A program made the position numbers and the translations under genes. A stretch of 64,000 nt of DNA, taken from contig JAJYVT010000010.1 of the NCBI GenBank assembly GCA_021791845.1, positions 1 through 64,000 of the forward strand, written 5' to 3'. A model generated the notes under the pieces. That model saw only the letters and a program-made list of their open reading frames with translations. It was not told where the DNA came from and ran no database searches. The number at the start of each line of letters is the position of its first letter. Positions within the stretch are counted from its first letter, which is position 1. Origin of the DNA: Actinomycetes bacterium. GTDB taxonomy: Bacteria > Actinomycetota > Acidimicrobiia > Acidimicrobiales > RAAP-2. Of the stretch, positions 2,378-50,161 are shown in pieces.

Positions 2378-3952
2378 TCAGCCCACGAGCCGGTCCGTGC
2401 CGCCCCAGTACGGGGCGCGCAGCTCACGCTTGAGGAGCTTCCCCGATGGGTTGCGAGGCAGCGTCGCAGCGAAGTCGATCGACTTGGGGCACTTGTAGCC
2501 GGCGATCCGCTCCCGGCAGAAGGCGATCAGCGCTTCGGCCGGCGGCGGTTCTCCGACCGCCACGACGACCGCCTTCACCGCCTCGCCCCACTGCTCGTCG
2601 GGGATGCCGAAGACGGCCGCGTCGGCGACCGCGGGATGGGCCATCAAGGCGTTCTCCACCTCCGCCGGGTAGACGTTCTCGCCGCCGGTCACGATCATGT
2701 CCTTCACCCGGTCGTAGAGGTACAGGTAGCCGTCTGGGTCCCGGTAGCCGGCATCGCCGGTCCTGAACCAGCCGTCGGCCGTGATGGCATCGGCGGTCGC
2801 TTCCCGGTTCCGCCAGTATCCCGACATCACCTGTGGGCTTCGCACCCAGAGCTCGCCCACCTCGCCCTCGGCCGCCTCCGACCCGTCGGGCAGGACGATT
2901 CGGACCGCCACCCACGGGTAGGGCCGACCGCAGGACCGGAGCAGCTCCGGCCGGAGGACGGGGTCGTGGTCGTGGGCGTCCAGCTGGACGATCGCGCCGG
3001 TGGTCTCGGTCAGGCCGTAGACCTGGATCAGCTCGCACCCCATGGTCTCGATGGCCCGCGTGAGCACCGACTCCGAGATCGGCGACGCTCCGTAGACGAC
3101 CTTCCGCAGCGATCGGAAGTCCGATCGGTCCACCCCGGGCGCCGCCAGCAGGAGCTGGATGACGGCGGGGACCATGAAGGCGTGCGTGACGCCCCGGCGC
3201 AGGGCGGCCAGCACCTTGGCCGGTTCGACGTCGGGGACGACGACGGTCCGGCAACCGAACGCCAGCCCGCACACGCTCCACCCCAGCCCGGCGATGTGGA
3301 ACATCGGCATCAGCGCCAGGTTCACCGAGTCTGCCGCTCGGAGCTCCCAGGACCGGTTCACGCCGGACATGAGCGAGAGGACGTTGGCGGTGGTGAGCAT
3401 GGCCCCCTTGGGGAGCCCGGTCGTGCCCGACGTGTAGAGCTGCATGGCCACCTGGTCGGCATCGGCGGTGGCTCCCGGATCGGCCGGCGGCTGGGCGCCC
3501 AGCCAGGCCTCGTAGGTCGTCCACCGATCGTGCGGTCCGAGGGAGACCAGACGCCGAACCTGGTCGAGCTCGGGCTCGATCCGCTCGACGACCGCCACCA
3601 GCTCGCCACCGACGACGAGGATCTCCGCCTCGGCGTCGTTGACGATCTCGAGCACCTCAGGTGGAGCGAGACGCCAGTTGACCGGGACCGCGACCGCTCC
3701 GACCAGGGCGGCGCCGAACGTGAGCTCGAACAGGGCCAGGCTGTTCCGGGCGAGGACGGCGATGCGAGCGTTTGGCCCGACGCCGTCGGCGACGAGAGCG
3801 GCGGCAACCGCCGCAGCGCGCTCGTACCATTCGGCGAAGGTGAGCGACTCGCCATCGCACTCGAGGGCGATGGCGTCCGGCCGCAGCCGGGCGTGCACCC
3901 GCACGATGTCAGCCAGGCACCGGATGTCCGGCTCGAGGTCCGTCCCGGTCAT
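2378..3952 (-). CDS. Acyl-CoA synthetase / AMP-dependent ligase
   Basis: A 524-residue ANL-superfamily enzyme that would activate a carboxylic acid as acyl-AMP and transfer it to CoA. Motifs in order: the P-loop LYTSGTTGLPKGAM, the YGLTETTGA motif, the GWFRTGDAG hinge region, the DRVKDMIVTGGENVYPAEVE core and the C-terminal catalytic Lys in NPSGKLLKREL. The acid-binding pocket cannot be read, so chain length is unknown. The ATG at 3952 is chosen because upstream in-frame residues are Arg-rich and non-homologous. It is the last gene of the minus-strand run behind dtd and an MBL hydrolase, 46 bases after the latter. Confidence 0.9.
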   Translation of the reverse strand: MTGTDLEPDIRCLADIVRVHARLRPDAIALECDGESLTFAEWYERAAAVAAALVADGVGPNARIAVLARNSLALFELTFGAALVGAVAVPVNWRLAPPEVLEIVNDAEAEILVVGGELVAVVERIEPELDQVRRLVSLGPHDRWTTYEAWLGAQPPADPGATADADQVAMQLYTSGTTGLPKGAMLTTANVLSLMSGVNRSWELRAADSVNLALMPMFHIAGLGWSVCGLAFGCRTVVVPDVEPAKVLAALRRGVTHAFMVPAVIQLLLAAPGVDRSDFRSLRKVVYGASPISESVLTRAIETMGCELIQVYGLTETTGAIVQLDAHDHDPVLRPELLRSCGRPYPWVAVRIVLPDGSEAAEGEVGELWVRSPQVMSGYWRNREATADAITADGWFRTGDAGYRDPDGYLYLYDRVKDMIVTGGENVYPAEVENALMAHPAVADAAVFGIPDEQWGEAVKAVVVAVGEPPPAEALIAFCRERIAGYKCPKSIDFAATLPRNPSGKLLKRELRAPYWGGTDRLVG

Positions 3953-3998
3953 GGCTCGCCTCCCCTGCCCGCGTGGCCGCACTCGTCCCGGCCGCCGG

Positions 3999-4835
3999 CT
4001 ACCGGCCAGCAGGAGGAGCGGAGCTCGGTCGATCGCCGCGCAGGCGCTCGACATAGCGATCCGCCGAACGACGGACCGCGGCGGCGCCGTCGTCGACGAT
4101 CACCCGCCCCCACCAGCCGCCGTACACGCGGTCGAAGCGGAAGCGGCCGACCCGCTCGGCGATCTCCCGCACCGTTCGCTCGTCCAGCGGGATCAGGTTG
4201 GGGTAGCTCCACATGAAGCTCGCCCAGCCGCGATCGGGGACGACCTGCACGGTGTCGCCGGTGAGGAGCACGCCCCGACCTTCGGAGCCGGCCGGCCAGT
4301 GCAGCACGGCGGCGCCGTCGAAGTGCCCGCCGATGCGCGCCACGCTCAATCCGGGCACCGGCTCCGTCTCGTCATCGAAGAGCTCGACGTGCGCCGAGGG
4401 GCGCCGGACCCATCCCGCGTCCGCTCTCGGGATGAGCACCCTCGCGTCGAACGCGTCGGCAAAGGCAACGTACGCGCCGTAGAAGTGAGGATGCGACATG
4501 CAGATGGCCGAGATGCCCCCGAGCTCCGCCACGCGGTCGCGCGCCGGGGCATCCAGCAGCGGGACGCAGTCCCACAGCACGTTGCCGGACGGAGTGCGGA
4601 CGAGGAGCGCACGCTGGCCGATGCCGACCTGCGGCTCGACCCCGATCCCGAACAGGTCGCGCTCCTCCTCTCGCACGACCACGTGGTGCGTCTCGGCGAG
4701 CTCGGCCATGGTCGTCCAGCGCTGGCCGTCCTGACCGACGTACTGGCGCTCGTCGTCGCAGATGGCGCATCGGTCGGGCGGTCGGGGTGCGTCGGCGTGC
4801 TGGACGCCGCAGGTCGAGCAGATCCAAGCAGGCAT
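3999..4835 (-). CDS. MBL-fold hydrolase with an N-terminal zinc-ribbon
   Basis: A 278-residue protein. It opens with a rubredoxin-like four-cysteine knuckle (CSTCG, 13 residues, CAIC), then a metallo-beta-lactamase domain. In place of the usual HxHxDH there is SHPHFYGA at about residue 114, followed by GGHFDG and LLTGDTVQ. Two histidines of the first metal motif are kept but the D-H pair is lost, as in a known MBL subfamily with SHPHFY. The substrate is unknown. It sits 9 bases behind dtd and ahead of an acyl-CoA ligase on the same strand. Confidence 0.8.
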   Translation of the reverse strand: MPAWICSTCGVQHADAPRPPDRCAICDDERQYVGQDGQRWTTMAELAETHHVVVREEERDLFGIGVEPQVGIGQRALLVRTPSGNVLWDCVPLLDAPARDRVAELGGISAICMSHPHFYGAYVAFADAFDARVLIPRADAGWVRRPSAHVELFDDETEPVPGLSVARIGGHFDGAAVLHWPAGSEGRGVLLTGDTVQVVPDRGWASFMWSYPNLIPLDERTVREIAERVGRFRFDRVYGGWWGRVIVDDGAAAVRRSADRYVERLRGDRPSSAPPAGR

Positions 4836-42861: not shown

Positions 42862-44163
42862 TCAGTCGTTGGCAGTGGCGGCGGCGAGCAGGTCGGCGAA
42901 CTTGCGCTGCGCCGCCACCCGCCGGGTCGGCACGTGCTCGGTCGGCACCTCCACCGGCTGGTACCGGCGGAGCACCCGGCGCGCCACCGATTGGCGGTGG
43001 ACCTCGTCGGGGCCGTCGTAGATGCGCGCCGCGCGCGCCGCCCGGTACATCGACTCCAGCGGGAGGTCGCAGGAGAAGCCGAGCGCCCCGTGGACCTGGA
43101 TGGCCCGGTCGATCACGTTGTAGAGCACCGCGGCGCCCCAGTACTTGATCATGGCGATCTCGTCGCGGGCCGCGGCTGCGCCCTCCCGGTCGATCTTCCA
43201 GGCCGCCTGGAGCGTCATGAGGCGGGCCGCGGTCATCTCGGCCAGCGAGTCCGCCACCCAGTTCTGCACCGTCTGCTTCTCGGCCAGCGTCGAGCCGTGG
43301 GCGTAGCGGGACACCGCCCGCTCGCACAGCATGTCGAACGCCCGACGCGACTGTCCGAGCCAGCGCATGCAGTGATGGATGCGTCCCGGTCCGAGGCGCG
43401 TCTGGGCCAGCCGGAAGCCCTCGCCCTCCCGGCCCAGCAGGTTGGCGACCGGCACCCGGACGTCGCGGTACTCGATCTCGGCGTGGTTCCCGAAGGTCCC
43501 GAGCTCGGCGGTGGGGTGGTCCATGACGGGGACGTCGCGCACGATCGTGACGCCGGGCGTGCCGGCCGGCACGAGCAGCATGGAGGAGCCCTGGTACGGA
43601 TGCACGTCCGGGTTCGTCACCGCCATGACGATGAGGAAGTCGGCCACCGACCCGTTGGTGGTGAACCACTTGCGGCCGTTGATGACGTACTCGTCGCCGT
43701 CCCGCACGGCCCGGGTGGCGAGGAGCGTCGGGTCGGACCCGGCCGTCTCCGGCTCGGTCATGGAGAAGCCGCTGTGCATGGTGCCGTCCAGGAGCGGCTG
43801 CAGCCACTGTTCGCGCAGGTCCTCACGGCCGGTCTCCTCGACGGCGGTCGCCAAGAGCTCGGCGTTGCCGGAGTCGGGTGCGTTGTTGCCGAAGACGAGC
43901 GGCCCGTAAGGGGACTGACCCAGGACCTCGTGCATGAGCCCGAGCCGCACCTGGCCGAACCCGGACCCTCCGAGCGAGGGGGGCAGGTGCGCCGCCCACA
44001 GGCCGCGGCGCTTCACCTCATCCTGGAGCGGCCGCACCACCCGGCGCAGCGTCTCGTGGTCCAGCTCGACGGTCTCGAGGGGGAAGACCTCGTCCCGGAC
44101 GAAGGCCCGCATCCACTCGAGCTGTGCCTCGAACTCCGGTTCGGTCGAGAAGTCCCAGGCCAT
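42862..44163 (-). CDS. Acyl-CoA dehydrogenase
   Basis: A 433-residue flavoenzyme. The family motifs are GFSMTEPETAGSDPTLLATR (FAD/substrate), YVINGRKWFTTNG, LGPGRIHHCMRWLGQSRRAF and YDGPDEVHRQSVARRVLR. It would introduce the alpha-beta double bond in an acyl-CoA thioester, passing electrons to ETF. The longer N-terminus (LEWMRAFVRDEVFPLE) and size match the 11/10-type branched or aryl acyl-CoA dehydrogenases. ATG 44163 has AAGGAGGG 9 bases upstream. Confidence 0.93.
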   Translation of the reverse strand: MAWDFSTEPEFEAQLEWMRAFVRDEVFPLETVELDHETLRRVVRPLQDEVKRRGLWAAHLPPSLGGSGFGQVRLGLMHEVLGQSPYGPLVFGNNAPDSGNAELLATAVEETGREDLREQWLQPLLDGTMHSGFSMTEPETAGSDPTLLATRAVRDGDEYVINGRKWFTTNGSVADFLIVMAVTNPDVHPYQGSSMLLVPAGTPGVTIVRDVPVMDHPTAELGTFGNHAEIEYRDVRVPVANLLGREGEGFRLAQTRLGPGRIHHCMRWLGQSRRAFDMLCERAVSRYAHGSTLAEKQTVQNWVADSLAEMTAARLMTLQAAWKIDREGAAAARDEIAMIKYWGAAVLYNVIDRAIQVHGALGFSCDLPLESMYRAARAARIYDGPDEVHRQSVARRVLRRYQPVEVPTEHVPTRRVAAQRKFADLLAAATAND

Positions 44164-44239
44164 CGGCGCCCTCCTTGTCCGGTCCTGGTCGAGCGTAGGG
44201 CACCGGAGGGCGGGGCTCCGGGCCGGCCGCCGTGGCGCG

Positions 44240-45844
44240 CTACGGGCCCGGGTGCGGGTTCTGGACGGCCGGGGTGACGCCGGGCGTCCGCCCGGCGCGG
44301 CGTGCGGCGGGGCTCCCCGACCATGTCGCGTCCCGGAGCTCGTAGCGGCCCCGCAGGGCCAAGAGGACGGCACCGGCCACGCCCAGGACGACGAGCACGT
44401 CGGCCAGGATCCCGTCGTGGCGGAGGGACCGCAGGATCCCGAGCACCGAGGACGCCCCGATGATCGTCTCGCACACCGACAGCCAGACCACCGCCCGCCG
44501 CAGCAGGCCGGTGGCAACCGGCGCCAGCAGCACCAGGCCCCAGGTCAGGTACCACGCCCACAGCACGGGGCTGAAGAGCGCGAGCACGAGGAGGCTGAGG
44601 CCGAGCGCCCGCAGGGGCCCGAGGCGCGGCGAGTGCCACAGGAGCCAGGTGCCGACGGCCATGGCCATGGCCATGGCGCACACGGCCACCACGGCGCGGA
44701 CCGAGCCGGTGGGCGTGGTCACCCCCGCCAGGTGGAGGAGGCCGGCCAACCCGCGCGTGACGTCGTCCACCGGGGTCACGCCGGTGCTGATCTTGTCGCC
44801 GGCGGTGAGGTTGACCACCCATCCCCATCCGACACCGGAGACGGCCGACAGCGCGGCCAGGACGGCGCCGCCCAAGCCCAGTGCCAGGAGCGTGCGCGCC
44901 CCCCGGCGCACGAAGCCCGCGCCGGGCCGGGCCCAGTTCCAACCGATGAGGACGAGGCCGAGGACCGCCGGTGCCTTCACGCCGGCCGCCAGCGCGCACA
45001 GGACGATGCCGGCCGGCGGGCCCCATCGCAGCCATGCCGCCAGGCCGGCCACGAGGAGGCCCACCATCAAGCCGTCGTTGTGGGCACCGCCGACGATCGT
45101 GGCCAGCACCATCGGGCTGCCGGCGCCCAGGGCCACGGCGAAGCTCGGGTCCCTCCCGACGCTGCGGGCCAGCGTGGGGAGGCTGGCCACGATGAGCACC
45201 AGCCCGAGCACCGACAGCAGCCGGAGGAGGACGAGGTCGGCCAGGAACTGGTGGCCCGAGAGCTGCGTCACCAGGCCGTCGAGGGAGAGGAAGGTCGGGC
45301 CGTAGGGAGAGGGGGTGTTGGCCCACAGCGGGCCGGCCAGCAGGTTGAACGGCGTGGCCCCGAGCACGCCCGGGCCGTAGTGGTACGGGTTGATGTGGAA
45401 GGTGACGAGCGCCCCCTGGCCGGCGTAGCTGTACACGTCCCGGCTGAACAGCGGGGGGGCCACCGCGAACGGGACCGCCCACGCCGCCACCACCCGGACC
45501 ACCTGCCTGAGCGACGTGCCGGGGTGGGCGCGCAGGGCTCGGAGGAGCCGCCACCAGACCGCCGCCAGGGCGCCGAGGCCGCCGTACACGAAGAGGATGG
45601 CGAGAGCCGGCGCCCGGCTGGCCGACGCGGCGACGGACCCCAGAGGACCGCCCGGGGTGCCGAAGAACCACGCCCCGGGCAGGTGGGACACGAAGCTGGA
45701 CCCCCCCATGACCGCGCCGAGGACCGCCACTCCCCCGGCGGCCAGCCCGGCCAGGCCGAACCGCCGGAGCGACGGCGGGCCGTCGTCGTGCACCGGATCG
45801 TCACGCAGGACGCGACGGGCGAGGGATTCCAGCATTGCGACCAT
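44240..45844 (-). CDS. MptB-like polyprenol-dependent mannosyltransferase
   Basis: A 534-residue polytopic GT-C protein with 12-13 membrane helices. The signature SRDVYSYAGQGALVTFHINP then YHYGPGVLG lies in the first extracytoplasmic loop with the catalytic Asp. WANTPSPYGPTFL and AHNDGLMVGLLV follow. The family builds alpha-1,6-mannan chains of lipomannan-type glycans from polyprenyl-phosphate-mannose. ATG 45844 is taken; ATG 45835 and TTG 45859 are possible. A membrane role in mannan assembly fits manB near 61 kb. Confidence 0.88.
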   Translation of the reverse strand: MVAMLESLARRVLRDDPVHDDGPPSLRRFGLAGLAAGGVAVLGAVMGGSSFVSHLPGAWFFGTPGGPLGSVAASASRAPALAILFVYGGLGALAAVWWRLLRALRAHPGTSLRQVVRVVAAWAVPFAVAPPLFSRDVYSYAGQGALVTFHINPYHYGPGVLGATPFNLLAGPLWANTPSPYGPTFLSLDGLVTQLSGHQFLADLVLLRLLSVLGLVLIVASLPTLARSVGRDPSFAVALGAGSPMVLATIVGGAHNDGLMVGLLVAGLAAWLRWGPPAGIVLCALAAGVKAPAVLGLVLIGWNWARPGAGFVRRGARTLLALGLGGAVLAALSAVSGVGWGWVVNLTAGDKISTGVTPVDDVTRGLAGLLHLAGVTTPTGSVRAVVAVCAMAMAMAVGTWLLWHSPRLGPLRALGLSLLVLALFSPVLWAWYLTWGLVLLAPVATGLLRRAVVWLSVCETIIGASSVLGILRSLRHDGILADVLVVLGVAGAVLLALRGRYELRDATWSGSPAARRAGRTPGVTPAVQNPHPGP

Positions 45845-46114
45845 TCTTGCCTTGCTCAAATCGGCGTGCCAGGCATCGCCCGACGGGCGAGGTCCGGATC
45901 CAATGGCCGCCTCCGAGCGGCGGGCATCCGGACCGCACCTTCGGCAGCTGCCCGTTGCCGGCCGGCACCGGGCGGGAGACGGCGACCAGCGGCCTGGGCA
46001 GGAGCGTTGGCAGCGGCAACCACCGACCGATACGAAGATTGGAACGCCGGTGCACAGGGTACCGATTGCAGACGCACGCGGCCATGGGGTCGCTCGTTAT
46101 GTGGAGGAAACGAC

Positions 46115-46528: not shown

Positions 46529-47044
46529 ATGGACAAGATCGGGGTGGTCGACACGATGTTCGCCCGGTACGACATGGGTGCCGAAGCAACGAACGAGCTG
46601 GCGTCGTGCCCCGGGTACGGCCAACGCTTCGAGGTCGTGCGGCGGACCGTTCCGGGCTTCAAGGACCTGGCCGTCGCGGCCAAGCGGATGATCGAGCTGG
46701 ATGGCTGCCGGGTCGTGGTCGCGCTGGGGATGCCCGGCCGGGCGCCGATCGACAAGCAGTGCGCCCACGAGGCGTCGACCGGGATCATGATGGCCCAGCT
46801 CATGACCAGCACCCCGATCCTCGAGGTCTTCGTCCACGAGGACGAGGAGGAGGACCCCGAGGACCTGGTGCCCGTCTTCCGGGACCGCTCGCGCAAGCAC
46901 GCCCGGAACGCGTACTGGATGCTCTACGAGCCCGATCAGCTCGTCCGCCGCGCCGGTCAGGGGGTGCGGCAGGGCTACGCCGACGCCGGACCGGTCGGCG
47001 CCCCGGACCGCGGTGCCGGCGGGCCGGCCGGCGCCGGCGAGTAG
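46529..47044 (+). CDS. ribC: Archaeal-type riboflavin synthase (RibC-like)
   Basis: A 171-residue protein that matches the archaeal riboflavin synthase family, not the bacterial RibE. It opens KIGVVDTMFARYDM, then VRRTVPGFKDLAVAAKRMIE, VVALGMPGRAPIDKQCAHEA, GIMMAQLMTSTPILEVFVHE and VRQGYADAGPV. Archaeal members convert two 6,7-dimethyl-8-ribityllumazines to riboflavin plus a pyrimidinedione, and resemble lumazine synthase in fold. Start ATG 46529. The Gly/Ala tail after about residue 154 is extra. No other rib gene and no FMN riboswitch is visible nearby. The match is by memory of the archaeal sequence. Confidence 0.88.
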   Translation: MDKIGVVDTMFARYDMGAEATNELASCPGYGQRFEVVRRTVPGFKDLAVAAKRMIELDGCRVVVALGMPGRAPIDKQCAHEASTGIMMAQLMTSTPILEVFVHEDEEEDPEDLVPVFRDRSRKHARNAYWMLYEPDQLVRRAGQGVRQGYADAGPVGAPDRGAGGPAGAGE

Positions 47045-47141: not shown

Positions 47142-48389
47142 TCAGAGCGCGGCCACGTAGTGGCCGACGTTGACCACCCAGGCCACCGCCACCAGCGCGG
47201 CGACGATCCACAGCCGGCGGCGGGACCCGAGGAGCACGATGGTCGACAACAGGTAGAGGTCCTCGAAGCCTCGGAAGTTCGCCCGTCCGTACCAGATGCC
47301 CGCCGACAGCGAGAGCGCGACCACCACGGCGATGCCCCAGGCCAGCTTCTCCCACAGCGGGACGCGCGAGCCGCGGATGCACCATGCGGCAAAGAGGGTG
47401 ACCACCGCGAGGACGAAGAACTCGCCCAGCCAGACGAGCGAGCCGAGCTGGGTCAGCCGCTCGAGGTAGTGGACGGTGGCGCCGACCATGTGGACGACGG
47501 GCACGGCCAGGTTGTCCCCGCCGTCGGCCCGCATGGGAAGCGTGCCGGTGGCGGCGAGGCCGAACAGCTGCCAGCCCACGAAGGCGCCGCCCGGGATGAC
47601 CCATGCCAGGTCCCGCAGGCCGGGCCGCCGCCGGCGCAGCACCAGTTCGACCAGGCAGACGAGCCCCACGGCGATCACCACGTCGAGCGTCGTCTCCAGC
47701 GTGAGGGCCGCCCCGGCGAAGAGGAACCCGGCCGCCACCGGACGATCCCGCCGCATGGCCAGCAGGCCGGCCACGAGGAAGCAGCTGGCGACAACCTCGG
47801 GCAGGTCGCGTCCGATGCTGAAGACGAAGCCCCAGAAGCCGGGCACGAGGAGGCCCCACATGGCATGGCGGCCGGCGTCCCGGGCGAGGAGGGCGCCCAG
47901 CCAGGCCAGGACGACCAGGGCCGCCAGGTTGACCGCGACCTCGCTCTCGGGGATCAGGGAGCGCTGCCCACCGGCGGCCAGCCAGGAGAGCACCGACAGC
48001 CCGATGCGCTGCACGCGGAAGCCCGCGTCCAGGGTGATGCCGTAGGCGGTGCGCGCCAGGTTCACGGGGTCGAGGGCGAGGCGGTAGTAGAACTGCCCGT
48101 CGTACCCGGTCCCGGGGAAGACGTGCAGGCCGCGGGGAGCCGTGGCCGGGTTGACGAAATCCCGCCCGGCCATGACGAACCGGGTGATGTCGCCCTTGGC
48201 CACGACCAACAGGCGGGCCACCACGTACGCGGTGCCGGCGACGGCGGCCACGACCGCCGCCGCGGCCGGGCTGTCCAGCCGTTGCCACCTGCCGGCCCGC
48301 ACGTGCCTGCCCGCCACCGGGGCAGGCAGCGTCGTCAGGTCCTGCTCCTGTGCGCGCACGTGATCCGTCCTTGACTCTCCGGAGAGCAC
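47142..48389 (-). CDS. Polytopic membrane protein with GT-C-like loop
   Basis: A 415-residue membrane protein with about 9-10 helices. The first extracytoplasmic loop contains FPGTGYDGQFYYRLALDP, a motif with the Y-D-G-Q-F-Y-Y pattern seen in putative actinobacterial membrane glycosyltransferases. No donor or acceptor can be assigned. GTG 48389 starts a basic soluble lead before the first helix; GTG 48359 is an alternative. It is divergent from the acyl-CoA synthetase. Confidence 0.7.
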   Translation of the reverse strand: MLSGESRTDHVRAQEQDLTTLPAPVAGRHVRAGRWQRLDSPAAAAVVAAVAGTAYVVARLLVVAKGDITRFVMAGRDFVNPATAPRGLHVFPGTGYDGQFYYRLALDPVNLARTAYGITLDAGFRVQRIGLSVLSWLAAGGQRSLIPESEVAVNLAALVVLAWLGALLARDAGRHAMWGLLVPGFWGFVFSIGRDLPEVVASCFLVAGLLAMRRDRPVAAGFLFAGAALTLETTLDVVIAVGLVCLVELVLRRRRPGLRDLAWVIPGGAFVGWQLFGLAATGTLPMRADGGDNLAVPVVHMVGATVHYLERLTQLGSLVWLGEFFVLAVVTLFAAWCIRGSRVPLWEKLAWGIAVVVALSLSAGIWYGRANFRGFEDLYLLSTIVLLGSRRRLWIVAALVAVAWVVNVGHYVAAL

Positions 48390-48520
48390 CCGGATGCTAC
48401 CGGCGCATTCAGGCTACGCACAGGTGCGACGGGTACGAAGGCGGCGGCCACCCCCCTCCCGGCTGGTTGCCGCAACTGCCGGGTCGGGACATAGGCTCCC
48501 GCCGGACAAGGGCACGAGCG

Positions 48521-50161
48521 ATGACTGTGACGAACTGGAACTACGCCGACGTGTGGGAAGCGGTGGCCGACGAGCAACCCGATGCCGTCGCCCTCGTGCA
48601 CGGTGACCGGCGGGTCACCTGGGGCGAGCTCGACCGCCGGGCGGACGGCCTCGGGCGCTGGCTGCTGGCCCAGGGGATCGCCCACCAGGACGCCGTCGCC
48701 CTCTACCTGTACAACAGCCCCGAGTACCTCGAAACGGCGTTCGCCACGGCCAAGGTGGCGGCCGTGCCCGTCAACACCAACTACCGCTACGCCGACGACG
48801 AGCTCGTCTACCTCTGGGACAACGCCGACGCCGCCGCCGTGGTGTTCCACGGCTCCTTCGCCGGTCGGGTCGAGCGGGTGCGCGAGCGGGTGCCGCGGGT
48901 CAGGTCGTGGCTGTGGGTCGACGACGGGTCCGGGCCGTGCCCGCCGTGGGCCACGCGCTACGAAGAGGCGGCCAAGTCCGCCACCGGCCGCACGCGCGGT
49001 CCATGGGGCCGCAGCGGCGACGACCTGGTGATGCTCTACACCGGCGGGACCACGGGGATGCCGAAGGGCGTCATGTGGCGCCAGGACGACCTGTTCGCCC
49101 GGATGAACGGCTCGGGGTTCCGCCACTACGACGAGTCGGCCGGGATCGACGGCGTCCGGGCCACACTGCGCGCCAACGGCCCGGGCCTGGTGGTCCTGGC
49201 GGCGTGCCCGCTCATGCACGGGACGGGCGGCTTCATCGCCATGGAGTGCCTGAGCGAGGGCGGGCGCGTGGTCCTCCTCGAGTCCCGGCACTTCGACCCG
49301 GTCGAGCTGTTCGACACCATCGAGCGCGAGCAGGTGAACGGAGTGGTCATCGTGGGCGACCCGTTCGCCCGCCCGATGCTGGCCGCGCTCGACGCGGAGC
49401 CGGACCGCTGGAGCCTTTCCTCCCTGCTCGGCATCCTCTCGTCGGGCGCCATGTGGAGCGAGGAGGTGAAGGAGGGCCTGCTCCGCCACAAGCCCGACAT
49501 GGTCCTGTTCGACTTCTTCTCCTCCTCGGAGGCCGTCGGCATGGGTGCCTCCATGTCGTCGGGCGCCAGCGCGACCAGGACCGCCGAGTTCGTCCTCGGG
49601 CCCGACGTGACGGTCCTCGACCCCGACGGCGCCCCGGTGGCGCCGGGTTCGGAGACCATCGGTGTGCTGGCGCTCGCCGGCCGCAACCCCGTCGGCTACT
49701 ACAAGGACGAGGAGAAGTCGAAGGCGACGTTCCGGGTCGTCGACGGCGTGCGGTACTCGATCCCCGGGGACTTCGCCCAGGTGCGGGCCGACGGGTCGAT
49801 CCACGTGCTCGGCCGGGGCTCGAGCTCGATCAACACCGCAGGCGAGAAGGTCTTCCCCGAGGAGGTGGAAGAGGCCCTCAAGACGCATCCGGCCGTGCAC
49901 GACGCCGCCGTGGTCGGGGTTCCCGACGACACGTTCGGGGAGGCCGTGGTGGCCGTGGTCGAGCCCGAGGCCGGCGCCGCACCCAGCGAGGCGGAGCTCA
50001 TCGCCTACGTGAAGGAGCGGCTGGCCAGCTTCAAGGCGCCGCGGCGGGTCCGGCTCGTGCCGTCGGTCGGCCGGGCCCCCAACGGCAAGCTGGACTACCG
50101 GCGCCACCGGGAGGAAGCTGTGGCGTGGACCAGGTCCGAGCCCGGGCCGGCGCGACCGTAA
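48521..50161 (+). CDS. Acyl-CoA synthetase (FadD-like)
   Basis: A 546-residue ANL enzyme: the P-loop LYTGGTTGMPKGVMW, FFSSSEAVGMGASMSSG, a hinge DFAQVRADGSIHVLGRGSSS, NTAGEKVFPEEVEEAL and the C-terminal Lys in PNGKLDYRRHREE. The hinge shows I-P-G-D-F rather than the usual TGD, as in mycobacterial FadD types. Carboxylate specificity is unknown. ATG 48521 is chosen as the first start in the conserved TNWNYADVWEAVAD opening. Confidence 0.9.
   Translation: MTVTNWNYADVWEAVADEQPDAVALVHGDRRVTWGELDRRADGLGRWLLAQGIAHQDAVALYLYNSPEYLETAFATAKVAAVPVNTNYRYADDELVYLWDNADAAAVVFHGSFAGRVERVRERVPRVRSWLWVDDGSGPCPPWATRYEEAAKSATGRTRGPWGRSGDDLVMLYTGGTTGMPKGVMWRQDDLFARMNGSGFRHYDESAGIDGVRATLRANGPGLVVLAACPLMHGTGGFIAMECLSEGGRVVLLESRHFDPVELFDTIEREQVNGVVIVGDPFARPMLAALDAEPDRWSLSSLLGILSSGAMWSEEVKEGLLRHKPDMVLFDFFSSSEAVGMGASMSSGASATRTAEFVLGPDVTVLDPDGAPVAPGSETIGVLALAGRNPVGYYKDEEKSKATFRVVDGVRYSIPGDFAQVRADGSIHVLGRGSSSINTAGEKVFPEEVEEALKTHPAVHDAAVVGVPDDTFGEAVVAVVEPEAGAAPSEAELIAYVKERLASFKAPRRVRLVPSVGRAPNGKLDYRRHREEAVAWTRSEPGPARP

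Follow-up and report, generated by a model that had tools for sequence, protein, structure and literature searches.

Cells that produce vitamin B2 for themselves cannot do without riboflavin synthase, an enzyme regarded as a drug target. It acts on two lumazines via a pentacyclic intermediate, one donating a four-carbon unit to the other, and its products are riboflavin and a pyrimidine that is reused by lumazine synthase (RibH). The bacterial and archaeal riboflavin synthases are unrelated proteins. The stretch of DNA analysed here (the window, 64 kb of a 65.3-kb contig) comes from a member of the Acidimicrobiales, in a lineage of uncultured bacteria of soil and acid habitats, and carries a reading frame with the motifs of the archaeal enzyme, RibC. 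Is this gene a true archaeal-type riboflavin synthase, is it the only one of the cell, and how did it come to be in a bacterium? The gene and its neighbours are as follows:

42862..44185, minus strand: acyl-CoA dehydrogenase (approximate coding part of the open reading frame 42862-44517; Pfam PF00441/PF02770/PF02771)
44240..45859, minus strand: membrane protein with no Pfam match, between the acyl-CoA dehydrogenase and ribC
46529..47044, plus strand: ribC, archaeal-type riboflavin synthase, 171 residues (TIGR01506, 188 bits; 52% identity to RibC of Methanocaldococcus jannaschii; AlphaFold fold match 2b98)
47142..48389, minus strand: membrane protein with no Pfam match, downstream of ribC
48350..50161, plus strand: acyl-CoA synthetase (AMP-binding; Pfam PF00501/PF13193), whose true start is probably inside this reading frame

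The ribC reading frame opens with an ATG at 46529 and runs uninterrupted through 171 codons to a TAG stop ending at 47044. The five archaeal RibC motifs quoted in the preliminary description are all present in its product, letter for letter. The archaeal model TIGR01506 (ribC_arch) matches far above its cut-off (188.3 bits, E 7e-56, cut-off 100.55) and over its whole length (positions 1-151 of 151), while the lumazine synthase model TIGR00114 gives 25.6 bits, i.e. below its cut-off of 84.6; the better match to lumazine synthase that the preliminary description had envisaged as a competing assignment is not seen. In the Pfam search the superfamily model PF00885 is the sole match (51.5 bits), with none to the Lum_binding domains of the bacterial enzyme (PF00677). 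A PDB search aligns residues 3-156 with the M. jannaschii riboflavin synthase (2b98/2b99, E 1e-49); this segment is the conserved core, followed by a non-conserved tail of the final ~15 residues. Both proteins have the motifs DT.FAR.DM, TVPG.KDL, GMPG, DK.CAHEAS, EVFVHE and RQG..DAGP. The AlphaFold monomer has a pLDDT of 80.6, with values below 50 confined to the last 27 residues, and its best structural match is 2b98 (TM 0.92 by target length, rmsd 1.6 A); 2b98 and 2b99 are at the top (rmsd 1.6-1.9 A) and lumazine synthases far behind. At least 562 relatives were confirmed in GTDB contigs, and since the best 80 of these are 67-89% identical, the family match is not due to chance. The ribC reading frame is thereby confirmed as a real and complete member of the archaeal-type riboflavin synthase family.

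Its likeness to archaeal RibC thus extends to full-length homology, motifs and predicted fold; what differs, besides the C-terminal tail, is that the window protein sits in a bacterium with RibD, RibBA and RibH of bacterial type. With RibH it shares the fold superfamily, but RibH catalyses the preceding step and has its own copy on another contig. The bacterial two-barrel RibE performs the same reaction at the same place in the pathway, with an unrelated fold and as a trimer. Archaeal RibC forms a pentamer and has no sequence relationship to this bacterial trimer (PMC10366380), and by analogy the window protein would be a homopentamer of lumazine synthase fold.

The window genome is a metagenome-assembled genome (MAG) of 3.55 Mb in 160 contigs (90.8% complete, 3.3% contamination). 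The preliminary description had suggested that it may lack the bacterial ribE, and this is borne out: PF00677 has no match in this genome, while the same search was positive in 11 of 14 control genomes. A ribH gene, by contrast, is present; it lies on contig C103 in the order ribD, ribBA, ribH, then hisG:

Contig C103, 136-1245: ribD (TIGR00326, 295 bits)
Contig C103, 1245-2456: ribBA (NF006803, 645 bits)
Contig C103, 2460-2984: ribH (TIGR00114, 147 bits)

RibH and the upstream pathway are therefore available to supply the substrate of RibC. The archaeal reductase model TIGR01508 stayed below its cut-off on the rib proteins of this genome, and as judged from these models only the last step of the pathway appears archaeal in type, RibD, RibBA and RibH being bacterial in type. 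The operon also keeps the trace of what is missing. In relatives carrying RibE the order is ribD-ribE-ribBA-ribH (11 of the 13 loci examined), whereas in genomes carrying RibC ribD is directly followed by ribBA and ribH at every locus with ribD on the contig (20/20, window genome included). In the window genome the ribD stop even overlaps the ribBA start. The ribE slot is thus closed, which indicates loss from a known position and not a failure of the search. As the MAG is 91% complete, the absence of ribE rests on the relatives and on this intact junction, not on the assembly alone. No FMN riboswitch was found at the Rfam gathering score in the rib operons of 18 loci or around ribC (in the window genome the sequence upstream of the operon ends 135 bases before ribD), so that there is no lead toward a shared riboswitch control.

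The distribution of the two synthases was determined in 100 relatives, i.e. 61 genomes of the family of the window genome (f1) and 39 of other families. RibC is present in 54 genomes of f1 (52 full length, 2 split or partial), and RibE is above the cut-off in none of the 61. The seven f1 genomes without RibC compare with 7.1 expected from completeness; the shortfall is thus what incompleteness predicts. Three f1 genomes of the wider Acidimicrobiales set described below, G525, G684 and G716 of genus g9, lack RibC at 96-97% completeness, which is a point against RibC as the sole synthase throughout f1. They are small (1.4-1.5 Mb) and their close relatives carry RibC; a secondary loss with riboflavin auxotrophy is possible for them. 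In the 39 genomes of other families RibE was found in 28, RibC in four (G068, G090, G092 and G098) and neither in seven. No genome has both synthases, among the 100 relatives as well as in a sample of 296 Actinomycetota genomes. This sample has RibE in 254 genomes and RibC in six, all of them Acidimicrobiales and RibE-negative. When 397 Acidimicrobiales genomes were searched for RibC, 56 were positive, from about ten families plus one divergent case. Viral contigs and phages yielded no RibC.

A third kind of riboflavin synthase was considered for the genomes with neither enzyme and rejected. Six of the seven also lack lumazine synthase, and the seventh, G064, has RibH and a contig edge inside ribBA, where ribE would adjoin just upstream; two further such genomes from the phylum sample also lack RibH. 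Eight Acidimicrobiales genomes (G066, G075, G077, G093, G094, G096, G188 and G284) are in this way devoid of RibC, RibE and lumazine synthase. Several of them are more than 95% complete, one is a single contig, and some retain a RibA-like GTP cyclohydrolase; these organisms are probable riboflavin auxotrophs.

In genome G046, which has RibH and no RibE, the RibC match is in two adjacent pieces with a gap between them (G046:C38:30406-30817), denoting either a frameshift or a damaged gene. In G579, of family f14, a divergent RibC (120 bits with TIGR01506, 46% identity to the window protein) immediately follows a second lumazine synthase (NF009084 type, 214 bits) at 3495-4462 on the plus strand of locus L226 (G579:C73:6500-15000). 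Since the other sampled f14 genome has a normal ribE operon, this pair may be a separate lumazine synthase-RibC module.

The preliminary description had placed ribC alone, with no other rib genes around it. It is indeed apart from the rib operon, and its wider acyl-CoA neighbourhood recurs in relatives: among 80 related loci compared by tblastn, the acyl-CoA dehydrogenase is near ribC in 47 and the acyl-CoA synthetase in 24, while both flanking membrane proteins are confined to the five loci nearest to that of the window (5/80). The acyl-CoA dehydrogenase is thus part of a conserved chromosomal setting of ribC, outside the riboflavin pathway. The GC3 of ribC (0.94) matches that of its neighbours. 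This recurring neighbour and the host-like GC3 argue against contamination and for a long residence of the gene.

In an RpoB tree of 40 genomes, the RibC or RibE label needs only two changes among 35 genomes. The RibE genomes G080 and G091, which have long branches, are placed among RibC genomes, so that a regain of RibE or a second displacement may have occurred. By and large, the RibC tree agrees with the family and genus groups. Together with the recurring neighbours and the GC3, both trees suggest that the gene was acquired long ago in a single event, or in very few, and was then handed down mainly vertically, and they too argue against contamination. The preliminary description had left the choice between transfer from archaea and an ancient displacement; the distribution favours an old displacement common to many families over a recent transfer into the window genome.

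We therefore hold it very probable that ribC encodes the only riboflavin synthase of the cell and that it displaced the native ribE in an ancestor and has since been inherited mainly vertically. The ancestor of a group of Acidimicrobiales families would have acquired RibC, most likely of archaeal origin. With RibC performing the final step, the native ribE would then have been lost cleanly from between ribD and ribBA, the gain presumably preceding the loss. From then on ribC would have been passed on at a site unlinked to the rib operon. In the present cell the bacterial-type RibH would supply 6,7-dimethyl-8-ribityllumazine, two molecules of which RibC is predicted, from homology and pathway context, to convert into riboflavin and 5-amino-6-ribitylamino-uracil.

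An archaeal-type synthase is already described in other actinobacteria: in roseoflavin producers ribE2 is an extra gene of the rosB cluster, for which horizontal transfer has been proposed (PMC11039241). RibE2 of Streptomyces davaonensis, S. cinnabarinus, S. berlinensis and S. camelliae (on a plasmid) is, like the window protein, an archaeal-type RibC in an actinobacterium. In Streptomyces, however, it is an additional synthase within an antibiotic cluster (ribE1 is present as well in S. berlinensis and S. davaonensis), whereas the window RibC is the only synthase found and lies outside any antibiotic cluster. The S. camelliae RibC scores 163 bits with TIGR01506, and its gene is located between a gamma-glutamyltransferase gene and ribX/rosB.

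Three other readings of the window gene can be weighed against these data. The protein could be a paralogue duplicated from the cell's own RibH and merely RibC-like, as the common fold superfamily and the PF00885 match would allow; this is highly improbable in view of the scores of the two TIGRFAM models and of the rank of archaeal RibC among the nearest folds, and BLASTP against the cell's own RibH is non-significant (14 bits, E 1.2), as compared with 52% identity to archaeal RibC. A fragmented and incomplete MAG with some contamination also invites the idea that an archaeal or otherwise foreign contig was binned into it, the real ribE being in the missing 9%. Such an artefact can hardly be reconciled with RibC in 54 of 61 genomes of the family and RibE in none, with neighbours that recur in relatives and a GC3 like theirs, or with the closed slot of an intact operon, and we give it almost no credit. 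It is also very unlikely that RibC serves a special pathway, e.g. a flavin antibiotic, instead of primary riboflavin synthesis. The role of RibE2 in Streptomyces and the surroundings of the S. camelliae gene speak for such a use, but no flavin-analogue genes were identified among the immediate neighbours of the window ribC, and RibC is near universal in f1 and, in genomes with the rest of the pathway, the sole synthase found.

The proximate source of the gene is a less settled matter. RibC could have come from another bacterium, either an unsampled lineage or one with a Streptomyces-type cluster, instead of directly from archaea, or have passed from Acidimicrobiales to Streptomyces. The S. camelliae RibC shares 58-68% identity with Acidimicrobiales RibC, as against 50% with that of M. 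jannaschii, and one tree places it among the Acidimicrobiales sequences. This placement is not firm: an AU test does not reject a tree in which all Acidimicrobiales are kept together (p 0.33), and with more rows the S. camelliae RibC joins a divergent sequence close to the base of the tree. Moreover, RibC is present in 3 of 4 archaeal controls and rare in Actinomycetota, which makes an archaeal source of the Acidimicrobiales RibC likely; the RibC trees contain one archaeal sequence (M. jannaschii), on a long branch. A bacterial intermediate or an exchange with Streptomyces is thus a possibility we rate well below direct descent from an archaeal gene. As a tentative extension of the preferred account, the archaeal enzyme, which has an unrelated structure, would have replaced an essential bacterial enzyme once, in an ancestor shared by about ten Acidimicrobiales families, and other bacteria, among them the roseoflavin producers of the genus Streptomyces, may subsequently have received this kind of RibC.

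The protein family itself is known, and automatic annotation with the NCBI model would give such proteins their correct name; what deserves notice is the displacement across a whole lineage. A literature search of partial coverage (most subscription papers being outside it) returned no paper on RibC in Acidimicrobiia, nor any in which a bacterial lineage has RibC as its one synthase. A bacterial lineage with the archaeal protein as its only synthase would represent a clean instance of non-orthologous displacement that can be put to the test, the closed operon slot being still visible. It would correct pathway reconstructions in which such bacteria are labelled riboflavin auxotrophs from a missing ribE, and it could be an alternative source of the RibE2 of Streptomyces, hitherto credited to horizontal transfer.

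One of the archaeal controls, Haloferax volcanii, was positive for the bacterial RibE (PF00677) and negative for the archaeal RibC. Haloarchaeal riboflavin synthases are said to resemble the M. jannaschii enzyme (PMC3403918); Haloferax volcanii is possibly a case of the reverse displacement.
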